Source: Cryobacterium inferilacus (GTDB taxonomy: Bacteria > Actinomycetota > Actinomycetes > Actinomycetales > Microbacteriaceae). From it: 64,000 nt of DNA. This document shows, piece after piece, positions 1,457 to 54,751 of this stretch (positions are counted from its first letter, which is position 1; each line of letters starts with the position of its first letter). The stretch is from assembly GCF_019599185.1 (NCBI RefSeq), contig NZ_JAIEUL010000011.1:1-64000 (forward strand), given 5' to 3'. The notes below the pieces were generated by a model. It was given only the letters and a program-made list of their open reading frames with translations, ran no database searches and was not told where the DNA came from. A program made the translations under genes and the position numbers.

Positions 1457-2752
1457 ATGAGACACGCAAAGAAGCGCCTGATCGTAGCGAGTTTACTCGC
1501 CACGAGTCTCGTTGCCGCCCTCGCCGGCTGCGCCCCCAGCACGGCTGGCGGCTCCGACGGCCAGAACGGTGAATTGACCATCTGGACGCACAACGGCGGC
1601 AACACCGAAGAGCTCGCCGCGGTGCAGGCCATCGTCGACGGCTACAACTCCAGCCAAGACGAAACCACCGTGAAGCTGCAGGCGTTCCCGCAGGCCTCCT
1701 ATAACGACTCGGTGATCGCGGCCGCGGCATCCGGCAAGCTGCCCTGCATCGTCGACATCGACGGCCCGAACGTGCCCAACTGGGCCTGGGCCAAGTACCT
1801 CACCCCGCTCGACCTGAGCGTGGACCTGGACGAGAACCTGCCCAGCACGCTGGGCATCTGGAACGGCGAGACCTACTCGGTGGGCTACTACGACGTGGCG
1901 CTGGCGATGTTCGCCCGCAAGTCCGTGCTCGAGGCGAACGGCATCCGCCAGGCCACCATCGACCAGCCCTGGACCCAGGCCGAGTTCGACGACGCACTCG
2001 CGAAGCTCAAGGCCGACGGCACCTGGGCCAACCCGCTCGACATCGGCACCGGCGACGTGGGCGAGTGGTACCCCTACGCGTTCTCCCCGCTGCTGCAGTC
2101 CTTCGGCGGCGACCTCATCGAACGTGACGAGTACCAGTCGGCCGAGGGCGTGCTCAACGGCCCCGAAGCCCTCGAATGGGCCGAGTGGATGCAGTCCCTC
2201 GCCACCGACGGCTACATCGCCACCAAGAGCGGCGCCGACTCCGCCCTCGACTTCCAGAACAACGTCACCGCCATCCAGTACGGCGGCAGCTGGGCCGCGG
2301 CCCAAAACTCCGCCGCCCTCGGCGACGACCTGGCCGTGATGCCCTCCGTCGACCTCGGCGAAGGCACCAAGATCGGCGGCGGCTCCTGGCAGTGGGGCGT
2401 GACCACCGGTTGCGCCAACCCCGAGGCCGCCATGGACTACCTCTCCTACTCGCTTTCCCCCGAGAACATCGCCGCGGTCGCGGTGGCCACCGCCACCATC
2501 CCCGCCACGGATGCCGCCGCCGCCCTGGTGCCCGGCTTCGAGGAGGGCGGCGACCTCGCCATCTTCCGCGAGTTCTCCGCGAACAGTGCGGTGCTGCGCC
2601 CCGAGACCCCGGCGTACCCGTTCATCGCAACGGAGTTCACCAAGGCGACGCAGGACATCATCAACGGCGGTGACCCGCAGGGCACCCTCGACGCGGCGGT
2701 CAAGGCCATCGACGCCAACATCACGTCCAACGGCGGTTACACGCAGAAGTAG
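1457..2752 (+). CDS. Sugar ABC transporter substrate-binding lipoprotein
   Basis: A 431-residue family 1 (MalE/UgpB-like) solute-binding protein. The N terminus has a KKR stretch, a hydrophobic core and a lipobox ending LAGC, with Cys25 the expected lipidation site, so it should be tethered outside the membrane. The start is ATG 1457: AGAAGGA (1444-1450) touches the upstream ATG 1451 but sits six bases before 1457. The mature part has the aromatic-rich body typical of oligosaccharide binders. It precedes two permeases and is separated from them by a strong hairpin. The GH32-like enzyme downstream suggests sucrose, fructo-oligosaccharide or levan fragments as substrate; this is inferred. Confidence 0.9.
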   Translation: MRHAKKRLIVASLLATSLVAALAGCAPSTAGGSDGQNGELTIWTHNGGNTEELAAVQAIVDGYNSSQDETTVKLQAFPQASYNDSVIAAAASGKLPCIVDIDGPNVPNWAWAKYLTPLDLSVDLDENLPSTLGIWNGETYSVGYYDVALAMFARKSVLEANGIRQATIDQPWTQAEFDDALAKLKADGTWANPLDIGTGDVGEWYPYAFSPLLQSFGGDLIERDEYQSAEGVLNGPEALEWAEWMQSLATDGYIATKSGADSALDFQNNVTAIQYGGSWAAAQNSAALGDDLAVMPSVDLGEGTKIGGGSWQWGVTTGCANPEAAMDYLSYSLSPENIAAVAVATATIPATDAAAALVPGFEEGGDLAIFREFSANSAVLRPETPAYPFIATEFTKATQDIINGGDPQGTLDAAVKAIDANITSNGGYTQK

Positions 2753-2758
2753 TCGACC

Positions 2759-2790
2759 GCGGGGGCGCGACTCACGCGCCGCGCCCCCGC
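2759..2790 (+). promoter_or_regulatory. Intergenic hairpin between binding protein and permease
   Basis: GCGGGGGCGCG (2759-2769) pairs perfectly with CGCGCCCCCGC (2780-2790) over a 10-base loop. There is no T tract. Such hairpins after binding-protein genes are known (malE-malF) to stabilise the upstream message, so the binding protein is made in excess over the permeases. Confidence 0.7.
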
Positions 2791-2810
2791 CCTCGCTCAG
2801 GGAGACTCTC

Positions 2811-3764
2811 ATGACCACCACGATCGAACGACCCCCCGCGGCCCCCGCCGCCGCCGGCCCGGCCCGGCCCCGCAGGCCCAAACGTGACCGCACCAGCAAA
2901 ACCGAGAACCTCGCCGGGCTGGCCATGCTCACGCCCGCCGTGCTGCTGCTGGCCCTCTTCATCTTCGTGCCCGCGATCCTCGCATTCGGGCTCGCCTTCA
3001 CCAACGCCCGACTCATCTCGCCCTACCCGGCGGTGTTCGTCGGCCTCGACAACTTCGTGCGGCTGTTCGCGGATGCCGCGTTCTTCCGGGCGCTGATCAA
3101 CGTCGGCTACTTCGCCGTGGTCGTCGTGCCGCTGCAGGCCGGGCTCGCCCTGGTCATGGCCATCCTGGTGAACAAGAAAGTGCGCGGCACCACGTTCTTC
3201 CGCACCGTGTACTTCCTCCCGGTCGTCACCTCCATGGTGGTCGTGTCGCTGCTCTGGCTGTTCATGTACCGCCAGGACGGCCTGATCAACGTGATCATCG
3301 ACCGGGTCACGATGGGCCTGGTCACCGGGCCGGACTGGCTCAACGACACCACCACCTCGATGCCGGCGATCATCCTCATGTCGGTCTGGCAGGGCGTGGG
3401 ATTCCACATGATCATCTGGCTCTCCGGCCTGCAGACCATCCCCGCCGACCTCTACGAAGCGGCCGACCTCGACGGCGTCTCGCCGTGGCAGCGGTTCAGG
3501 TACATCACCTGGCCGGGCCTCTCCGCCACCCGCAGCCTGATCCTGGTGACCATCACCATCCAGGCGCTCAGCCTGTTCACTCAGATCAGCGTGATGACCC
3601 AGGGCGGTCCGCTCAACTCCACCACCACGGTGGTCTACGAAGCCGTCGAATCCGGCTTCGCCCAGCAGGAGACCGGCTACGCCTCGGCGATCTCCCTCGT
3701 GTTCTTCGTCATCGTGCTGCTGATCTCGGTTGTGCAGCGGTTCCTCAGCAGAGAGAAGGCCTGA
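2811..3764 (+). CDS. Sugar ABC transporter permease, MalF/UgpA type
   Basis: A 317-residue inner-membrane permease. About 35 basic and proline/alanine-rich residues precede six predicted membrane segments. The cytoplasmic EAA loop that docks the ATPase reads DLYEAADLDGVSPWQRF. ATG 2811 follows a GGGAG ribosome site. The next permease starts two bases after its stop codon, so the two are translated together as a heterodimer. No ATP-binding subunit is encoded nearby; in actinobacteria such importers usually share an MsiK-type ATPase, which would have to be elsewhere. Confidence 0.92.
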   Translation: MTTTIERPPAAPAAAGPARPRRPKRDRTSKTENLAGLAMLTPAVLLLALFIFVPAILAFGLAFTNARLISPYPAVFVGLDNFVRLFADAAFFRALINVGYFAVVVVPLQAGLALVMAILVNKKVRGTTFFRTVYFLPVVTSMVVVSLLWLFMYRQDGLINVIIDRVTMGLVTGPDWLNDTTTSMPAIILMSVWQGVGFHMIIWLSGLQTIPADLYEAADLDGVSPWQRFRYITWPGLSATRSLILVTITIQALSLFTQISVMTQGGPLNSTTTVVYEAVESGFAQQETGYASAISLVFFVIVLLISVVQRFLSREKA

Positions 3765-3766
3765 TC

Positions 3767-4717
3767 ATGGCGATCTCAAACGTAGCCATCGCAGAGGTGG
3801 CACCGGCATCCGCCCCGCACGTGGTGCTCGGTCGAAAGACGGCCCGCAAGAAGCGCGTGATCGGCATCGGCGGCTACCTCCTCCGCATCGGCCTGGCCGT
3901 GCTGTTCCTCTTCCCGATCCTGTTCATGTTCGTGTCGTCGCTCAAGCCCGACCAGCAGATCTTCGGCGACCTGTCGTCGATCGCCGCGTTCCTGCCCATC
4001 GGCAACATCTCGATGGACAACTACGCCGCGGTGTTCGACCGGGTGCCCGCCGCCCGATTCCTGGTCAACTCGATCGGCATCTCGGCGATCACCGTGGTCG
4101 CCGGCATCCTGGTGAACAGCCTGGCCGCGTTCGCGCTGAGCCGGATGCGGGTGCGCGGCAAGACCGTCATCCTCACGCTCATCATCGCCACCCTGATCGT
4201 GCCGTTCGAGACCCTCGCGCTGCCGCTGGTGTGGTGGGTGAACCAGCTGCCCTCGTTCGAGCTGACCGAGCTGGGCTTCATGTTCAGCAAGGGCTGGATC
4301 GACACCTACCAGGTGCAGATCATCCCGTTCGTGGCCAACGCGTTCTCGATCTACCTGTTCCACCAGTACTTCGAGTCGATCCCCAAGGAGCTCGACGAGG
4401 CCGCCCGCATGGACGGCGCCGGCTGGTTCCGCATCTACCGGCAGGTGGTGATGCCGCTCTCCGGCCCCGCCATCGCCACCGTCGCGATCCTCACCTTCCT
4501 GCCCGCCTGGAACTCCTACCTCTGGCCGCTGATGGTGGTGCAAACCGAGGAGCTCCGCCCGGTGATGGTGGGCGTGCAGTACTTCTTCCAGCTCAACGTC
4601 TCCTGGGGCGAGGTGATGGCGTACTCCACGCTGATCACGCTGCCCGTGGTGGCCCTGTTCATCGCTTTCCAACGCTCATTCGTCAACAGCATCGCGTCCA
4701 GCGGTGTGAAAGGTTAG
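3767..4717 (+). CDS. Sugar ABC transporter permease, MalG/UgpE type
   Basis: A 316-residue partner permease with six predicted membrane segments and the EAA docking loop KELDEAARMDGAGWFRIY. The ATG at 3767 lies behind GAGAGAAGG and two bases after the previous stop, which indicates translational coupling. The C terminus ends NSIASSGVKG, the usual form for this family. It forms the channel with the preceding permease, serves the binding protein at 1457, and sits nine bases before the hydrolase gene. Confidence 0.92.
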   Translation: MAISNVAIAEVAPASAPHVVLGRKTARKKRVIGIGGYLLRIGLAVLFLFPILFMFVSSLKPDQQIFGDLSSIAAFLPIGNISMDNYAAVFDRVPAARFLVNSIGISAITVVAGILVNSLAAFALSRMRVRGKTVILTLIIATLIVPFETLALPLVWWVNQLPSFELTELGFMFSKGWIDTYQVQIIPFVANAFSIYLFHQYFESIPKELDEAARMDGAGWFRIYRQVVMPLSGPAIATVAILTFLPAWNSYLWPLMVVQTEELRPVMVGVQYFFQLNVSWGEVMAYSTLITLPVVALFIAFQRSFVNSIASSGVKG

Positions 4718-4726
4718 GCCGGTTCT

Positions 4727-5719
4727 ATGTCGCTCCAACTGCCCGATAAGTGGATCTGGGACTCCTGGTACGTTCAGGTCGACGGCGTCACCCACGCCTT
4801 CTATCTGCACGCCAGCAAGGCCCTTGGCGATCCGGAACGCCGGCACCGGCACCCGATCGTCGGCCACGCCGTCAGCACCGACCTCACCAACTGGACCGTC
4901 GTGCAAGACGCGCTGATCATCTCGGATGCGCCCGCCTTCGACGACGGAACCACCTGGACCGGCTCGGTCGTGCGGGCCGACGACGGCCTCTGGTGGATGT
5001 TCTACACCGGCACCTCCCGCGCCGAGAACACCATGGTGCAGCGGGTGGGCGCGGCCACCTCGGCCGACCTGCTCAGCTGGACCAAGGTCTCGACCGAACC
5101 TCTCGTGGAGGCCGACCCGGCCTTCTACGAGACGCTCGACCTCACGGTCTGGCACGACCAGGCCTGGCGCGACCCGTGGGTGTTCCGTTTTCCGGGCGAG
5201 AGCACCTGGCAGATGCTGATCACCGCCCGCGCCGCCACCGGCGACCCGCTGGTGCGCGGGGTACTCGGCCACGCCACCAGCTCCGACCTGCTGAATTGGA
5301 CCGTGCAGCCGCCGCTCAGCCAGCCGGGACAGGGCTTCGGCCAGCTCGAGGTGTTCCAGTTCGAGATCGTCGACGGGGTGCCGATCCTGCTGTTCTGCTG
5401 CGGCGTCAGCGAGCTCTCACCCGAGCGCCAGGCCGCCGGTGAGGTGGGCGGGGTCTACAGTGTTCCCGTGGACTCACGACTCGAGCAAGTGGACTTCTCC
5501 GGCTCGGTGCTGTTCGATCGCACCGACCTCTACGCTGCACGGCTGCTGCAGGATGCCGCGGGCGGCTGGGCGCTGCTCGGCTTCATCAACACCGTCGACG
5601 GCGAGTTCGTCGGCACACTGAGCGACCCGATCCCGGTCACGGCCGATCCGGTTCTGGGCCTCGTGCACCGGTCGGTACCCGACGCAGCCGCAGCGCCCGC
5701 GTTGGCGGCGGCGCTGTGA
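4727..5719 (+). CDS. GH32-like beta-fructosidase, catalytic propeller only
   Basis: A 330-residue five-bladed beta-propeller glycosidase of the GH32/GH68 clan. The three catalytic positions are visible: WIWDSWY with candidate nucleophile Asp12, the RDP transition-state stabiliser at 148-150, and Glu208 in QLEVFQ as candidate acid/base. There is no signal peptide, so it acts in the cytoplasm on imported substrate. It is much shorter than usual GH32 enzymes (450-500 residues) and appears to lack the C-terminal beta-sandwich. Its gene overlaps the kinase gene by four bases. Hydrolysis of sucrose or fructo-oligosaccharides to fructose is the likely reaction; exact specificity is not visible. Confidence 0.82.
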   Translation: MSLQLPDKWIWDSWYVQVDGVTHAFYLHASKALGDPERRHRHPIVGHAVSTDLTNWTVVQDALIISDAPAFDDGTTWTGSVVRADDGLWWMFYTGTSRAENTMVQRVGAATSADLLSWTKVSTEPLVEADPAFYETLDLTVWHDQAWRDPWVFRFPGESTWQMLITARAATGDPLVRGVLGHATSSDLLNWTVQPPLSQPGQGFGQLEVFQFEIVDGVPILLFCCGVSELSPERQAAGEVGGVYSVPVDSRLEQVDFSGSVLFDRTDLYAARLLQDAAGGWALLGFINTVDGEFVGTLSDPIPVTADPVLGLVHRSVPDAAAAPALAAAL

Positions 5720-25523: not shown

Positions 25524-25979
25524 CTAGACGGCCACGTCTCCGCGCCAGCCGTCGCCCTGGTTGGCGGGGTTCTCGACGAAGGTCTTGAACTGCTTGAGGT
25601 CCTTGCGGATCACGTGGTCGTCGACGCCGAAGACGGCGCCCATCTTCTCCAGGAAGCCCTCGGCCTCCCAGTCCAGCTGCACGGTGACCCGCGAGGTGGT
25701 GTCGCTCAGGCGGTGGAAGGTGACCACGCCGGCGTGCTTCTCGTCGCCGGAAGTGCTCTTCCAGGCCACGCGCTCGTCGGGGTGCTGCTCGGTGATCTCA
25801 GCATCGAACTCACGTTCGGCTCCACCGATCTTCACCTTCCAGTGCGTGTGGGTGTCGTCGATCTGGCTGATGCTCTCGACGTAGTCGAGGAAGTGCGGGA
25901 ATGATTCGAACTGGGTCCACTGGTTGTACGCGGTGCGTACGGGAACGTCAACGTCGATTGTCTCGATTACCTGGGTCAC
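25524..25979 (-). CDS. SRPBCC family protein (polyketide cyclase-like)
   Basis: A 151-residue START-like protein: an N-terminal strand, the helix VPVRTAYNQWTQFESFPHFL, then HWKVKIGGAEREFDAEI and a C-terminal helix with VIRKDLKQFKTFVE. Members of this group are common in actinobacteria and often respond to stress. GTG 25979 is preceded by AGAGGAT; a longer upstream ATG start is less likely. It sits between Dps and LCP on the same strand, with strong terminators on both sides, so it is a single-gene unit. Confidence 0.83.
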   Translation of the reverse strand: MTQVIETIDVDVPVRTAYNQWTQFESFPHFLDYVESISQIDDTHTHWKVKIGGAEREFDAEITEQHPDERVAWKSTSGDEKHAGVVTFHRLSDTTSRVTVQLDWEAEGFLEKMGAVFGVDDHVIRKDLKQFKTFVENPANQGDGWRGDVAV

Positions 25980-26137
25980 GGTTAGATCCTCTGTCCTGTT
26001 TCGCGATGCCCGCGTCATCGGTGTTGACTGGCGGGCGAACGCTCTGGCGGGGTGGTCGACTCCTGGCCGGGTAGGCGGACTCGATTGTGCGAGTGTTCGT
26101 CTAGCTATGACGTATCCAGTGGCCCATTCGTCACGGC

Positions 26138-26178: not shown

Positions 26179-26673
26179 TTATGCCTTGCCGACCGGGCGG
26201 GTCGAGTCCTTCGCCGTGGCCTTGCGGGGCTTACGGTCCTCTGCGCTGACCATCCAGATGTACTGCTCCAGCTTGAGGATGAAGCCGTTCAGGATATCAG
26301 CGCTGGCCGGGTCTTCTTCGTCGACAGCCTCGTGAACTTCGCGGATGTTGTCGACCGTCGCGGTGAGCAACGCTGTGACCAGTCCCACGGTTTCGGTGGT
26401 GTCCACCTCGCCGGCGGGGAACTTGGGCAGGTGCGTGGTCTTCGTGACGGTTTCGGTGCGGCCGTCGGGCAGAGCGTCGAGTGCGCGCATCCGCTCGGCG
26501 AGCTCATCGGTGAAGATTCGGGCGTCGTCGATGATCTCGTCGAGCTGCAGGTGCAGGTCGCGGAAGTTCTTGCCCACGACGCTCCAGTGCGCCTGCTTGC
26601 CCTGGACGTGCAGTTCGATCAGGTCGACCAGGACCGACTGCAGATTGCTGCCGAGCTCTGCGGATGCCTTCAT
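26179..26673 (-). CDS. dps: Dps-family DNA-protecting ferritin
   Basis: A 164-residue four-helix ferritin-like protein that forms a dodecamer, oxidises iron and shields DNA under starvation or oxidative stress. The inter-subunit ferroxidase residues are visible: HVQGKQAHWSVVGKNFRDLH supplies the histidines, and LHLQLDEIIDDARIFTDELAER the Asp and Glu. The C-terminal tail is lysine- and arginine-rich, as in members that bind DNA. ATG 26673 follows AAGGGA. The gene is monocistronic and divergent from glgX. Confidence 0.92.
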   Translation of the reverse strand: MKASAELGSNLQSVLVDLIELHVQGKQAHWSVVGKNFRDLHLQLDEIIDDARIFTDELAERMRALDALPDGRTETVTKTTHLPKFPAGEVDTTETVGLVTALLTATVDNIREVHEAVDEEDPASADILNGFILKLEQYIWMVSAEDRKPRKATAKDSTRPVGKA

Positions 26674-26832
26674 TGGGATTCCCTTCGTCACCGGCGGGAA
26701 CGGATCTGGGCCGAATGCTCAGCCGGGGTCCCGCCTGGTTCTGAGAGCACACTAGCAGCGGCCGCCGACAGAATCGCCACTCAGGCCTTTCCCAGTTTTG
26801 GTCGGCCTGTCGCAGCTATTCTGACGAATCAT

Positions 26833-50727: not shown

Positions 50728-51312
50728 CTAGTCGGCCGGGGTGGCGTTGCGGCGCAGGTGAACGTCGGTGATGGTCACGTTGACCGCCTGGATGTTCAGT
50801 TCGGTGTGGTGGAGCAGCGACGTCGTGATGGCGTCGCGCAGTCGCTTGGCGGTCTGCGGCATCCGCTCGCCCCAGAAGACGCTCGCTTCGACGTTCACCG
50901 TGATCGGGCTGCCCGGCACGGCCACATCGCCGTCGAGCGTGCAGGAGCCGATGAAGGTGCCGGCGACGGCGTCGCCGGCGGCGCGGATCAGACCTCGAAC
51001 GGCGCCCTCGGTGAGGCTCAGGGCAGCCTTCGGCGAGGGGTGCGAGACCGGGATCGTGCGGCCGACGCGGGATTCCCGGTGGATGCTCTTGAGAATTCCG
51101 GCCACCCAGCTGTCGGCGTCAGCCGAAAGCTCCGAGACCTCCTCCGCGAGGATGTCCTGGGCCATCGACCTGAACCGGGTGAGCGCGTCGTAGGCGAGGC
51201 GGTGGTCAGGTGTGGTGTTGAGCAGCTCGTCCGGCGGGCTCTCGCCCCGGTCGAGGAAGTCGCTGAGATGGGCGATCAGGTCGAAGTCCGGGTCGTCAGG
51301 AGAGGAGGTCAT
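50728..51312 (-). CDS. Asp23-like protein coupled to the ECF sigma factor
   Basis: A 194-residue protein. The C-terminal half is an Asp23/Gls24-type domain ending QAVNVTITDVHLRR, closely like the ending of the Asp23 gene at 52092 (VTGVNVTINDVHF). The N-terminal half is acidic and helical (HLSDFLDRGESPPDELL then FRSMAQDILAEEV) and looks like a small partner-binding domain. ATG 51312 overlaps the sigma factor stop (ATGA), where anti-sigma genes usually lie. An anti-sigma or sensor role is inferred from this position. Confidence 0.8.
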   Translation of the reverse strand: MTSSPDDPDFDLIAHLSDFLDRGESPPDELLNTTPDHRLAYDALTRFRSMAQDILAEEVSELSADADSWVAGILKSIHRESRVGRTIPVSHPSPKAALSLTEGAVRGLIRAAGDAVAGTFIGSCTLDGDVAVPGSPITVNVEASVFWGERMPQTAKRLRDAITTSLLHHTELNIQAVNVTITDVHLRRNATPAD

Positions 51313-51881
51313 CGCCATTCCTCCATCTCTTGCATGAGTTTCTGCCTGGCCCGGGCCAACAGTCCCCGCACCGTCGATGGAGGCAGATCCAGCTCCTCGG
51401 CGATCTCGGCGTAACTGTGCCCGCCAATCTCCCGCAGCGTCCAACATTCACGCTGTGATTCGCTCAGAGTACCGAGTGCACGTGTGAGACGCTCCCTTTG
51501 AGACGCAGCTTCGGCCCGATGGTGGGGAGATTCGGATTCTGGGGCGGCAACATCCCACTCGCCGAGGGGCTGGTCCGCCCGACGCGCACGGATGCGGTCG
51601 ATGGCCTTGCGGCTGGTGATGCGCATCAACCAGGCTTTCGTCGCGGCCGGGTCCTGCAGCTCGTGCAGCCGTTCCCAGGCGGTGATGAAGGTGTCCTGCA
51701 CGACGTCATCGGCATCGCCGTTCGACCCCAGGATGCGCGTGGCGTACGCCCGCATCAGCGGACCATGACGCCGCACGATCACCTCGAAGGCGCGTACGTC
51801 GCCGTCGACGGCGCGGGCAACCAGAATCGAGTCTGCTGCATCACCGAGGTTGGAAGGCTCATCGGACACCAATGCTGACAC
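51309..51881 (-). CDS. ECF-type RNA polymerase sigma factor
   Basis: A 190-residue sigma-70 factor. Region 2 is seen in VIVRRHGPLMRAYATRILG and DADDVVQDTFITAWERLHEL, and region 4 in LSESQRECWTLREIGGHSYAEIAEELDLPPSTVRGLLARAR. GTG 51881 is preferred because GAGGAG lies just upstream; ATG 51902 is possible. The gene is coupled to an Asp23-like gene and divergent from two more. Regulation by envelope or alkaline stress is a reasonable inference. I see no certain ECF promoter pair in the 210-base divergent gap, only a short ATAGT-G-ACTAT palindrome at 52018-52028. Confidence 0.93.
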   Translation of the reverse strand: MSALVSDEPSNLGDAADSILVARAVDGDVRAFEVIVRRHGPLMRAYATRILGSNGDADDVVQDTFITAWERLHELQDPAATKAWLMRITSRKAIDRIRARRADQPLGEWDVAAPESESPHHRAEAASQRERLTRALGTLSESQRECWTLREIGGHSYAEIAEELDLPPSTVRGLLARARQKLMQEMEEWR

Positions 51882-52091
51882 CGGACTCCTCTTCTCCCCC
51901 ATACGAACGCCCTGCGGGCTGGCCAATTTCGTGACGAACCCCTTGCGAGACTCGTCTGAACAGTATCAATGGAGTTTCACAGAGAGAAAAAACACTCCGA
52001 ACTGAGAACCGTGCGACATAGTGACTATCTCACCATCCCGCGAATTGTCACAACCGAACCGCACGCGGCCCAACAACCAGGAGCAGCACTC

Positions 52092-52577
52092 ATGACCGGC
52101 ACCTCTCCCCACCCCGTCACCCCCAACGATTCCACGGCTGATCCCGCAATTGATCCCGCGAACGCCACCCGCGGCACGACGGTCATCACCGACTCCGTCG
52201 TCGCCAAGATCGCCGGGCTGGCCGCGCGGGAAGTACCGGGCGTGCACACCCTCGGTGGCGGCGCCGCACGCGTGCTTGGCGCCATCCGTGAGGCCCTCAG
52301 CAGCGCCGATCACAGCCAGGGCGTCAGCGTCGACGTCGGTGACGGCCAGGTCAGTGTCGACCTGACTATCGTCGCCACCTACCCCGCGGCCCTGCCCCGG
52401 GTTGCCGAGGACGCGCGGAACGCCGTCATCGAGGCGCTCGAGACGCTCGTGGGCCTGCGGGTCACCGGCGTCAACGTGACCATCAACGACGTGCACTTCC
52501 CCGATGAGACCGCGGACACCGACTCCGATTCCGACACCGACCAGACCACGATCACCGACGAGAACCGGGCGCAGTGA
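52092..52577 (+). CDS. Asp23/Gls24 family envelope stress protein
   Basis: A 161-residue protein with the Asp23 domain: TTVITDSVVAKIAGLAAREV and VPGVHTLGG open it, VSVDLTIVATYPAALPRVAED follows, and VTGVNVTINDVHF closes it. In Staphylococcus, Asp23 is an abundant membrane-associated envelope stress protein. Flanking tails are disordered and acidic. ATG 52092 follows AGGAG, and the stop overlaps the next gene. It is divergent from the sigma factor and probably under its control. Confidence 0.9.
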   Translation: MTGTSPHPVTPNDSTADPAIDPANATRGTTVITDSVVAKIAGLAAREVPGVHTLGGGAARVLGAIREALSSADHSQGVSVDVGDGQVSVDLTIVATYPAALPRVAEDARNAVIEALETLVGLRVTGVNVTINDVHFPDETADTDSDSDTDQTTITDENRAQ

Positions 52578-52921
52578 GCACGGTTCCCGACATCGCCACC
52601 ACCCGCGGACGCACCCAGATCGGCACCCGCGCGGTGTCCCAGGTCGTCTCTGCGATTGCCGCCGAGGCTCTCGGACTGCGCCGGCGTCAGGTTTCCGTCG
52701 ATCTGAACGACACTGCGGGGGTCGTCGACGTCACGGTGCGCGCACCCCATCGGGCGTTGCCCGACGCCGCAGCCGACACGGACGATGACGAGCTGGCCCG
52801 CACAGAGCACACCCGGAAGCAGGTGCGCGGTACCGTCGGCGAACTCACCGGCATTCAGGTCGGCGCCGTCACCGTGCGCCTGACCACCCACCGGCTGCAC
52901 CTGCCCCACCGGGGCAGCTGA
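52574..52921 (+). CDS. Second small Asp23-like protein
   Basis: A 115-residue protein with a compact version of the Asp23 pattern: TQIGTRAVSQVVSAIAAEAL, VSVDLNDTAGVVDVTVRAP, then GELTGIQVGAVTVRLTTHRL. The GTG start overlaps the preceding Asp23 stop by four bases (GTGA), so the two are coupled and may form a hetero-oligomer. In other actinobacteria Asp23 genes come in similar small clusters. Confidence 0.78.
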   Translation: MSTVPDIATTRGRTQIGTRAVSQVVSAIAAEALGLRRRQVSVDLNDTAGVVDVTVRAPHRALPDAAADTDDDELARTEHTRKQVRGTVGELTGIQVGAVTVRLTTHRLHLPHRGS

Positions 52922-52983
52922 CCTCGACCACCCGCTCCACGGCCACACACCCGCGACCCGGCACCCCGACAGAACGGCTCACC

Positions 52984-53163
52984 ATGAACGGCACGATCAG
53001 ATCAGCGCAACCCTCGATGAGCCGAGCTGCCGCATCCGAGGGCGAGCCAGGAACGGTGAGCCCCGGTACTCGGCGAGACGCGGAAGCGCTGGCATACGAT
53101 GCCCGCCGCCCGACGCTCGCGCCCACGGTCATCCACCCCCCAACCTCCCTGACCACCCCCTAG
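52984..53163 (+). CDS. Possible 59-aa protein in the Asp23 cluster
   Basis: A 59-codon open frame between the second Asp23-like gene and csbD, without a good ribosome site. The product is rich in Arg, Ala and Pro and matches nothing I know. It may be a small gene, a remnant of a longer cluster member, or non-coding leader for csbD. Confidence 0.3.
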   Translation: MNGTIRSAQPSMSRAAASEGEPGTVSPGTRRDAEALAYDARRPTLAPTVIHPPTSLTTP

Positions 53164-53179
53164 AGAAAGAGAGAACACA

Positions 53180-53353
53180 ATGAGTGGATCCGACAAGATC
53201 GAGAACGCCGCCCAGGACCTCGGCGGCAAGGCGAAGGAAGCCTTCGGCAAGGCCACCGACGACGACTCGAAGGTAGCCGAAGGCAAGTCCGACCAGGCGC
53301 AGGCCGACCTCAAGAAGGCCGGCGAGAACGTCAAGGACTCCTTCAAGAAGTAA
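53180..53353 (+). CDS. CsbD family stress protein
   Basis: A 57-residue, highly charged helical protein: SGSDKIENAAQDLGGKAKEA, then KVAEGKSDQAQADLKKAGE. This is the CsbD pattern, a sigma-B-type general stress protein of unknown mechanism. It belongs to the same transcription direction as the Asp23 genes and is probably part of the same stress response. A bidirectional hairpin follows it. Confidence 0.9.
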   Translation: MSGSDKIENAAQDLGGKAKEAFGKATDDDSKVAEGKSDQAQADLKKAGENVKDSFKK

Positions 53354-53362
53354 CCAATCCGG

Positions 53363-54751
53363 TCACCCGGCCGGCACCATCGGATTCTCGACGGTGCCGG
53401 CCGGGCAGGCCGCGTTCACCCGCATCATCGCCGCCGCGTCGTCTGCCGTCCAGGGCAGGGCCAGGCGCGGTGCCACCTGCCCGTCGGCCGTCGCCGCCTG
53501 GGTGGCGATCGCCGCGAGTCGCATCGCCAGGTCAAGGGCAAAATCGGCTCCCGCGCTGGAGTCGTTCACCATCACCACCACCGTCAGCCCGGTCTCCGGG
53601 TCGGTGAGACTTGCCGAGAGGTAGCCAGGGATCTCGCCCCCAGCCCCCCGCATCGGGCCCAGCTGCTCCGCCCCCAGGCCCTGCCGCTGCCAAAACGGCT
53701 TGCCGCCCTGCGCAACCGTCGCCCACTGCTCGTTCACCGTGTCGGGCTGCAGCAGAGTGCCCGCCGCCAGCGCCTGCGACCAGGTCTTGAGGTCGGCCAG
53801 GGTGGACACCACCCCACCGGCCACACCGGCCACGGACGGGGACAGCCGCGTGACGTCGAGCATCCTGGCGCAGTCTGCCCGGCCGGCGCCGTCGACCGCG
53901 GCGGTCCAGCCGTGCGGGTGCGGGCCGGGCACCGCCAGCTCCCTGGCGTCGGGGTAGCTCGTCTCCCTCAGGCCGAGCGGGTCGAACAGATAGCGTTGGT
54001 AGAGGTCGGCCCAGTCCTGCCCTGTCGCCTCCGCCAGGGCCATCCCCAGCAGCTGCACACCCGCGTCCGAACGGCTCCACAGTCGGCCGGGCGGCCCGAC
54101 CCTGGCTGTGCCGAGCCCGGCGGAAACGAGCTCGAGCGCCGGCCAACGACGGGTGGGGTTGCTCACGAACTGCGCATCCAGTTCGGGCTGACCCAGGCCC
54201 GAGGTGTGCTGGCAGAGCTGGCGCAGCGTGATTCCCTCGATCCCCGGCTGCCTGGTCAGGTAGGTCGACACCGGGTCATCCAGGCCCACCCGCTGCTCCT
54301 CTGCCAGCCTGAGCAGCACCGTGCAGGTCATCGCGGTGGTCTGCGTGCCGATCCGAAAGCCCATGTCGGTGGTCAGCGCACCACCGCCAACGGCTCGACC
54401 CGTTTCGGGGTCCGCTCGGGTACCGAGCGTGCCCGGGCTGGCCAGCCACCGGCCGGCCCACGGCACCCAGACGCCCGCAATCGCCCCGGATGCCCCGGCC
54501 AGCGCCATCCCGTCGGCCAACGCCGCATCCAGCGCGGCCAGGGTCTCCGCCGACAGTGTGCCCGTCGCCTGCTCCGGGCCGAACGGCTGCGGAACCTCGG
54601 CCTGCGCGCACCCCGCCAGCGGGAGCACCAGGGTGAGCAACAGGGCTACCCCCGCGCGCACCAGTGCCCGCCGATGCCGTTCCCCCGGGACGGCTGTCGT
54701 GTCGCCGCGCGCCGAACCGCCGCCACTCGTTCCCGTCCGGTCAGCTGTCAC
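53363..54751 (-). CDS. Beta-lactamase-fold lipoprotein lacking catalytic residues
   Basis: A 462-residue class C beta-lactamase/esterase-like (serine hydrolase) protein. A signal peptide ends LAGC (Cys48), so it is a lipoprotein. The fold is clear, but the active site is not. The SxxK box reads GTQTT, with Thr136 for Ser and Thr139 for Lys. The YxN box is WSRSD, and the KTG/HTG box is GAGG. All three motifs are altered, so it is probably a non-catalytic binding or regulatory protein. GTG 54751 is the chosen start. Confidence 0.85.
   Translation of the reverse strand: MTADRTGTSGGGSARGDTTAVPGERHRRALVRAGVALLLTLVLPLAGCAQAEVPQPFGPEQATGTLSAETLAALDAALADGMALAGASGAIAGVWVPWAGRWLASPGTLGTRADPETGRAVGGGALTTDMGFRIGTQTTAMTCTVLLRLAEEQRVGLDDPVSTYLTRQPGIEGITLRQLCQHTSGLGQPELDAQFVSNPTRRWPALELVSAGLGTARVGPPGRLWSRSDAGVQLLGMALAEATGQDWADLYQRYLFDPLGLRETSYPDARELAVPGPHPHGWTAAVDGAGRADCARMLDVTRLSPSVAGVAGGVVSTLADLKTWSQALAAGTLLQPDTVNEQWATVAQGGKPFWQRQGLGAEQLGPMRGAGGEIPGYLSASLTDPETGLTVVVMVNDSSAGADFALDLAMRLAAIATQAATADGQVAPRLALPWTADDAAAMMRVNAACPAGTVENPMVPAG
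53366..53405. terminator. Bidirectional hairpin between csbD and the serine-hydrolase-like gene
   Basis: CCCGGCCGGCACC (53366-53378) and GGTGCCGGCCGGG (53393-53405) form a perfect 13-bp stem over a 14-base loop. It lies 12 bases after csbD and within the last codons of the convergent gene. It can stop transcripts from both sides. Confidence 0.7.

Follow-up and report, generated by a model that had tools for sequence, protein, structure and literature searches.

A predicted soluble two-domain anti-sigma factor with an Asp23 tail and the candidate targets of its ECF sigma factor in Cryobacterium inferilacus

Introduction

Certain groups of extracytoplasmic function (ECF) sigma factors have been linked to soluble proteins of the Asp23 family. 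A 2022 review, citing the ECF classification, describes ECF286 and ECF292 as adjoining such proteins, which are predicted to be anti-sigma factors, and adds that experimental data are lacking (PMC8999054). In contrast to the analysis reported here, the passage concerned names neither a promoter nor targets, nor the origin of the domains. No experimental study of an ECF sigma factor paired with an Asp23-family anti-sigma factor was recognised, from title or start of abstract, among the literature matches listed. The locus described in this study lies in a 64,000-nucleotide stretch of Cryobacterium inferilacus DNA (contig NZ_JAIEUL010000011.1, positions 1 to 64,000 of the forward strand; hereafter, the window), from a genome of 4.0 Mb in 75 contigs. 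As in ECF286 and ECF292, with which it is compared by description only, an ECF sigma gene adjoins the gene of a soluble Asp23-family protein. An earlier note on this DNA had considered the arrangement to be new. The pairing, however, had already been predicted in print, and the new elements, all of them computational, are the likely domain origin of the anti-sigma candidate, its loss of zinc ligands, a candidate promoter and putative targets. Together these would add a specific regulon and domain ancestry to what had been a single-line prediction for two ECF groups.

The class I anti-sigma domain is described as four helices, the fourth of which follows a flexible linker and lies on sigma region 2; its H-x3-C-x2-C motif spans helices 2 and 3, and members without zinc exist (passages of PMC7406223). 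The window protein resembles the zinc-associated anti-sigma (ZAS) proteins of the RsrA/RshA type in that it is soluble, is encoded behind a sigma gene and has an N-terminal domain related to theirs through intermediates. It differs from them in having no zinc ligands and in carrying an Asp23 domain behind its predicted anti-sigma domain.

A further point of comparison is the staphylococcal Asp23-AmaP-DUF2273 module. The asp23 gene of Staphylococcus aureus is known as a SigB-dependent gene and is not known to be ECF-controlled, unlike the asp23 gene of the window, which is a candidate for ECF control. Passages of PMC6954212 describe AmaP as tethering S. aureus Asp23 to the membrane and Asp23 as forming filaments in vitro, report induction of the cell-wall stress response when asp23 or amaP is lost, and call the molecular role of Asp23 proteins unclear. 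A conserved ECF switch with asp23 genes as candidate targets, and with an Asp23 domain at the end of its predicted anti-sigma factor, would offer a direct handle on this role through a single predicted promoter motif, two candidate asp23 targets that are unlinked and a tail open to testing.

Results

The sigma factor and its putative anti-sigma factor

The locus comprises an ECF sigma gene and the gene of a 194-residue protein, which overlaps the sigma stop codon by four nucleotides (ATGA); asp23, an asp23-like gene and csbD are divergent from this pair (Table 1). The earlier description of a sigma gene overlapping a 194-residue protein with a C-terminal Asp23 domain was confirmed by the Pfam matches and the overlap. 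The count of three Asp23-like proteins given in the same note also stands, although the third, of 115 residues, is a weak member: it had no match of its own in the Pfam scan and is Asp23-like by profile comparison only (115-residue family against asp23 family, 85.7% probability; reversed control, 0.1%).

We consider the 194-residue protein likely to be a soluble anti-sigma factor of two domains, and the sigma factor, once released, likely to drive the asp23 genes and an SRPBCC/polyketide-cyclase-like gene. The more limited statement, that the protein is an anti-sigma factor, as its position had suggested in the earlier note, is very probable from the gene order, the four-nucleotide overlap and the kinship of its N-terminal domain, through intermediates, to anti-sigma domains. 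In the proposed mechanism, the helical domain at the N-terminus, descended from a class I (ZAS-type) domain but devoid of zinc, would hold the ECF sigma factor encoded by the overlapping gene, and the C-terminal Asp23 domain would be the regulatory part of the anti-sigma factor. The freed sigma factor would initiate at GTGACGAA-N14-CGTC before the asp23 operon that diverges from the sigma gene, before a second, unlinked asp23 gene and, in the clade of the window, before the SRPBCC gene. The computation shows the genes with their overlap and conserved order, the kinship of the N-terminal domain through intermediates, and the motif with its distribution; binding, inhibition, use of this promoter by the sigma factor, the releasing signal and any feedback, with its sign, are inferred.

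Table 1. Features of the locus, the promoter motif copies and the related gene groups (window positions unless another contig is named)
Feature	Coordinates	Strand	Basis or remark
ECF sigma gene, 197 residues, ATG start	51309-51902	-	Pfam Sigma70_r2 67.3 bits, Sigma70_r4_2 58.7 bits
Possible alternative sigma start (TTG), upstream	51926
Anti-sigma candidate, 194 residues	50728-51312	-	Asp23 PF03780, profile links, ATGA overlap with sigma gene
Helical N-terminal domain of the 194-residue protein	residues about 8-85
C-terminal Asp23 domain of the 194-residue protein	residues about 98-185
ECF-type promoter motif before asp23	51931-51956	+	fixed-spacing search
Possible alternative asp23 start (ATG)	51969		asp23 frame
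asp23, 161 residues	52092-52577	+	PF03780 92.0 bits
asp23-like gene, 115 residues, GTG start	52574-52921	+	4-nucleotide overlap with asp23; family profile comparison
csbD	53180-53353	+	PF05532 59.3 bits
Second motif copy	26109-26134	-	own-genome pattern search
SRPBCC/polyketide-cyclase-like gene	25524-25979	-	PF03364 70.1 bits; motif about 130 bp upstream
Ferritin-like (Dps-type) gene	26179-26691	-
Membrane-protein-like gene, 345 residues	49678-50715	-
Membrane gene group on contig C33	L292 (G000:C33:25500-33000), 2837-4606
Second asp23 and neighbours on contig C4	L172 (G000:C4:95500-103500), 2694-5023

The 194-residue protein has no hydrophobic 19-residue stretch and is soluble. Its AlphaFold2 model (70 sequences; mean predicted local distance difference test (pLDDT) score 79.2, predicted template modelling (pTM) score 0.52) shows N-terminal helices at residues 12-21, 28-31, 35-63 and 67-82, and a beta-alpha-beta-beta-alpha-beta domain at residues 98-184. 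The fourth helix is of low confidence (block pLDDT of 51 and 55, residues 61-80), and the last two helices merge into one when the N-terminal domain is modelled alone. A pattern for one aromatic residue in the fourth helix of the window family is present in 80/80 relatives, with a tryptophan in 78; these relatives are the best 80 of 156 loci found in named genomes, and close relatives are among them. The Asp23 match of the window protein reaches 29.2 bits against a curated cut-off of 28 (residues 124-185) and begins only at profile position 44; the cut-off was passed by one of eight homologues scanned. Profile comparison of the tail of the 194-residue family with the free asp23 family gave 93.9%. 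In fold searches with the whole model, matches to the ferredoxin-like C-terminal half took up the listings, chiefly MamM and the tails of further cation transporters, and no Asp23 structure was present among the 50 rows listed for each.

Origin of the N-terminal domain

A class-wide search gave matches in 147 of 394 genomes, and many of those listed involve the Asp23 part alone. From these relatives, a distant set of 20 loci was analysed (L150-L169), of which L151 belongs to the family of the window and the rest to other families. The sigma gene lies directly before the homologue in 19 of the 20, with an overlap of 4 or 10 nucleotides, and L168 shows no clear pair. The zinc motif C-x(n)-H-x3-C-x2-C is encoded in 17 of the 20 loci (17 of the 19 from other families) and is missing in L151 and L169.

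The profile of these 17 distant N-terminal domains returned two anti-sigma factors, RsiW (E 0.0052) and chain 3hug_B (0.0053), as the first two of 13 PDB matches, followed by a C-type lectin (0.021) and DdvA (0.05). The PDB entry of chain 3hug_B is titled probable conserved membrane protein; we take the chain to be RslA. In profile-profile comparison, the distant 17 matched 29 homologues of the RsrA-like zf-HC2 protein of the own genome at 91.7%, and the N-terminal domain of the window family at 98.3%, with reversed or unrelated control profiles at 4.4% or below. The N-terminal domain is thereby related, through intermediates, to class I anti-sigma domains. Because the zinc motif lies in the N-terminal part of the distant relatives, and because of the profile links, the helical N-terminal domain, and not the Asp23 domain, is likely to be the sigma-binding part. 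The Asp23 fold (the earlier note had proposed an Asp23-fold protein as sensor or anti-sigma factor) was considered for this part and rejected, since the zinc anti-sigma motif and the profile links indicate the first domain; it would instead be a C-terminal appendix.

The lineage of the window has lost the zinc ligands of the class I domain. The H-x3-C-x2-C motif is absent from the window protein, and C-x2-C is retained in 2 of 132 near homologues, a set in which some of the 80 recur among the whole-genome loci and some places were fetched twice. The possibility that the window protein is itself an RsrA-like redox or zinc sensor, to which the full zinc motif of the other-family relatives would point, is extremely unlikely: C-x2-C is absent in 130 of these 132 near homologues and in the window protein, whose sole cysteine lies inside the Asp23 domain.

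Conservation of the locus

A profile search with the 194-residue family matched 116 of 299 genomes of the window's family (41 of 85 genera), and in 114 of these the match had an E of no more than 4.5e-28. Cryobacterium holds the closest named relatives of the window protein, and the best 80 include loci from Cryobacterium, Subtercola, Agreia, Herbiconiux, Leucobacter, Microbacterium, Rathayibacter and others. In 80/80 relatives, a sigma gene immediately precedes the homologue on the same strand, in two of them as a broken copy (L076 and L084), and the four-nucleotide overlap is present in 73 of the 80 and in 125 of the 132 loci. The anti-sigma alignments A2 and A7 omit L070, L084 and L086 (start unclear) as well as near-identical rows; L070, L076 and L084 were kept in the 132-locus counts of the overlap and of C-x2-C, and in the 80-locus counts.

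Within the fetched stretches of the 80 loci, asp23 was found in 68, the asp23-like gene in 52 and csbD in 55. The orientation of asp23 to the sigma gene is divergent in 48 loci; in the 20 with asp23 on the same strand, most (Microbacterium, for example) carry the asp23, csbD, sigma and anti-sigma genes in succession. A survey of gene order, suggested in the earlier note as a check, thus found the order conserved, and because it is kept well beyond the genus, the association is more than chance. The correlation between sigma and anti-sigma identities (r 0.845, 2850 pairs) was not counted as evidence, because common descent predicts such a correlation anyway. None of 39 stretches from viral contigs was a relative of the locus.

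Some individual loci depart from the usual form. In five Rathayibacter loci (L090, L094, L095, L099 and L104), the anti-sigma gene starts at least 13 bases past the sigma stop, with no four-nucleotide overlap. The anti-sigma gene of L070 is split by a stop. In L076 and L084, the sigma gene contains frame changes, and both genomes have other copies among the fetched loci.

Promoter motif and candidate targets

The word pair found most often before asp23 consists of GTGAC and CGTC, present in 43 of 57 non-redundant regions and in at most 11 in each of five shuffles. CGTC is a usual ECF -10 element. The promoter consensus was expressed as GTGACGAA-N14-CGTC, and the strict search pattern was TGAC[GA]-N16-CGTC. 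The strict motif was identified upstream of 53/69 asp23 genes, the window's included (200 shuffles: mean 0.44, largest 3), with a background over whole loci of 0.026 per 330 bp, true sites included. Among the distant loci, L151, of the window's own family, has a perfect site, and L161 a site with a spacer one shorter. A promoter of the form GGAAC/CGTT gave two matches in the window, no more than expected by chance. The asp23 genes, with this candidate promoter before them, are very probably targets of the sigma factor and hence not independent of it; such independence had been named in the earlier note as a refuting outcome.

For csbD, the strict motif was found upstream of 5/53 genes, and in these five loci csbD adjoins the sigma gene and no asp23 was found. 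Autoregulation of the sigma gene was not seen, because the strict motif lies upstream of just 1/81 sigma genes.

A search of the own genome with GTGACRA-N15-CGTC gave 24 occurrences (backward control, 10), and the context of 20 of these was checked. Thirteen lie in likely coding frames (two also with an open reading frame (ORF) behind), three have no suitable gene, and four precede a gene outside likely coding frames. The four genes are the window asp23, the unlinked second asp23 on contig C4, the SRPBCC gene and a membrane-protein gene on contig C5. At one site beyond the 20 (C74:70885), the surrounding real-looking genes run the opposite way. The motif of the second asp23 is kept in 12/12 orthologues, own included. 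For the SRPBCC gene, it is likewise kept in 12/12 orthologues with identities of 86% or more, counting the own copy, and the gene is likely to be a regulon member in this clade.

Several results weigh against the reading of the 194-residue protein as an anti-sigma factor and of the motif as the promoter of its sigma factor. No Pfam or NCBIfam anti-sigma model matched the protein, the PDB matches of the distant N-terminal domain profile are modest in strength, and the direct comparison of the window family's N-terminal domain with the RsrA-like set gave 1.7%, so the link needs the intermediates. Fold searches with the N-terminal domain only were weak, both in Foldseek (four rows; best E 6.1, MucA E 9.4) and in VIA (four rows, including MucA at Z 2.7 and RseA at Z 2.5). 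The exact motif is absent at 16/69 asp23 genes; of nine such regions inspected, six hold the site but for a single change within its -10 element. The scarcity of the motif at sigma genes, given above, belongs here also, as does the comparison of 13 regions upstream of asp23 from L150-L169, in which no word pair exceeded the shuffles. Finally, the SRPBCC motif was found in 0/18 more distant homologues; most of these come from genomes with the sigma locus, and four from genomes without it.

These results bear on a second explanation, in which the 194-residue protein is translationally coupled to the sigma factor without being its anti-sigma factor (a helper or effector, for example) and the motif is that of another sigma factor. 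The missing direct match to anti-sigma models would fit, as would the position of the second asp23, which adjoins a sigma/zf-HC2 gene pair of the SigR/RsrA type. The SigR consensus is GGAAT-N18-GTT, however, and the motif is unlike it; moreover, the profile chain leads to RsrA-like proteins, RsiW and 3hug_B, and the presence or absence of Asp23 tracks the sigma locus (among 57 genomes of the genus, six lack the anti-sigma family, and exactly these six lack any Asp23 match). We regard this explanation as very unlikely.

The second asp23 itself lies between a Transgly_assoc membrane gene and the sigma/zf-HC2 pair, and a further short ORF with no Pfam match also lies between these (Table 1).

Membrane-anchor genes and possible feedback

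In two relatives (L063 and L040), the asp23 operon has the order asp23, DUF2273-type, asp23-like, DUF6286-type, AmaP-like and csbD. The DUF2273-type, DUF6286-type and AmaP-like proteins have two membrane helices each; the AmaP-like label was given by position, without an AmaP model search. In L063, the one locus to which the Pfam result refers, DUF2273 was above the cut-off and DUF6286 just below it. The staphylococcal module and the present loci have Asp23 family genes in common, and the L063 operon adds DUF2273 and DUF6286/AmaP-like genes. The window operon differs from the module in that the three membrane genes are absent (no hydrophobic ORF was listed on the + strand at 52000-53400), and the same holds for L031. 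They are found elsewhere in the window's genome, on contig C33, where a group consists of DUF2273, asp23-like, DUF6286 and AmaP-like genes (Table 1). This group contains no asp23 gene and no strict promoter motif, and resembles a membrane portion displaced from the asp23 operon.

Because the asp23 products share a domain family with the anti-sigma tail, the assembly state of Asp23 could feed back on the sigma factor. As a trigger of sigma release, contact of the tail with Asp23 assemblies, acting in either direction, is the most economical guess. One direction, put forward in the earlier note, is titration: free Asp23 would bind the Asp23 tail and release the sigma factor, giving positive feedback. 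The domain common to the tail and the free proteins, the candidate promoter at the asp23 genes and the filaments of S. aureus Asp23 in vitro (described in a passage of PMC6954212) are consistent with this. Such positive feedback, however, would tend to lock the switch on, and the tail has diverged, as indicated by the partial profile match and by the seven of eight homologues below the Pfam cut-off; we consider titration distinctly unlikely.

The sequence data are just as compatible with feedback of the opposite sign. In this case, the tail would dock on the Asp23 assembly and the anti-sigma factor would hold the sigma factor for as long as the assembly is intact; loss of Asp23 would free the sigma factor to make more Asp23, giving negative feedback. 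The stress response that follows loss of asp23 or amaP in S. aureus (a passage of PMC6954212) would agree with this, as would the joint presence or absence of anti-sigma and Asp23 genes in 57/57 genomes of the genus. This co-occurrence is equally expected from linkage, however, and the membrane-anchor genes lie outside the window operon; a homeostatic loop of this kind is unlikely.

Returning to the two-domain anti-sigma factor, we suggest tentatively that its Asp23 domain was recruited as a sensing tail, which would read the state of the Asp23 assembly by domain contact, and that in this lineage zinc was lost from the anti-sigma domain and the membrane anchors from the asp23 operon; this is possible, although doubtful. 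If true, structural proteins of the envelope network would control their own sigma factor.

Neighbouring genes and minor observations

An ATG in the asp23 frame lies 12 bases past the -10 element of the window motif (Table 1) and, as an alternative start, would give a nearly leaderless asp23 of 202 residues. The asp23 of L031 has a comparable N-terminal extension, with poor likeness to that of the window past the first residues. On the strand of the anti-sigma gene, the membrane-protein-like gene of 345 residues starts 12 bases past the anti-sigma stop and could be cotranscribed with it. The ferritin-like gene ends just upstream of the second motif copy and the SRPBCC gene.

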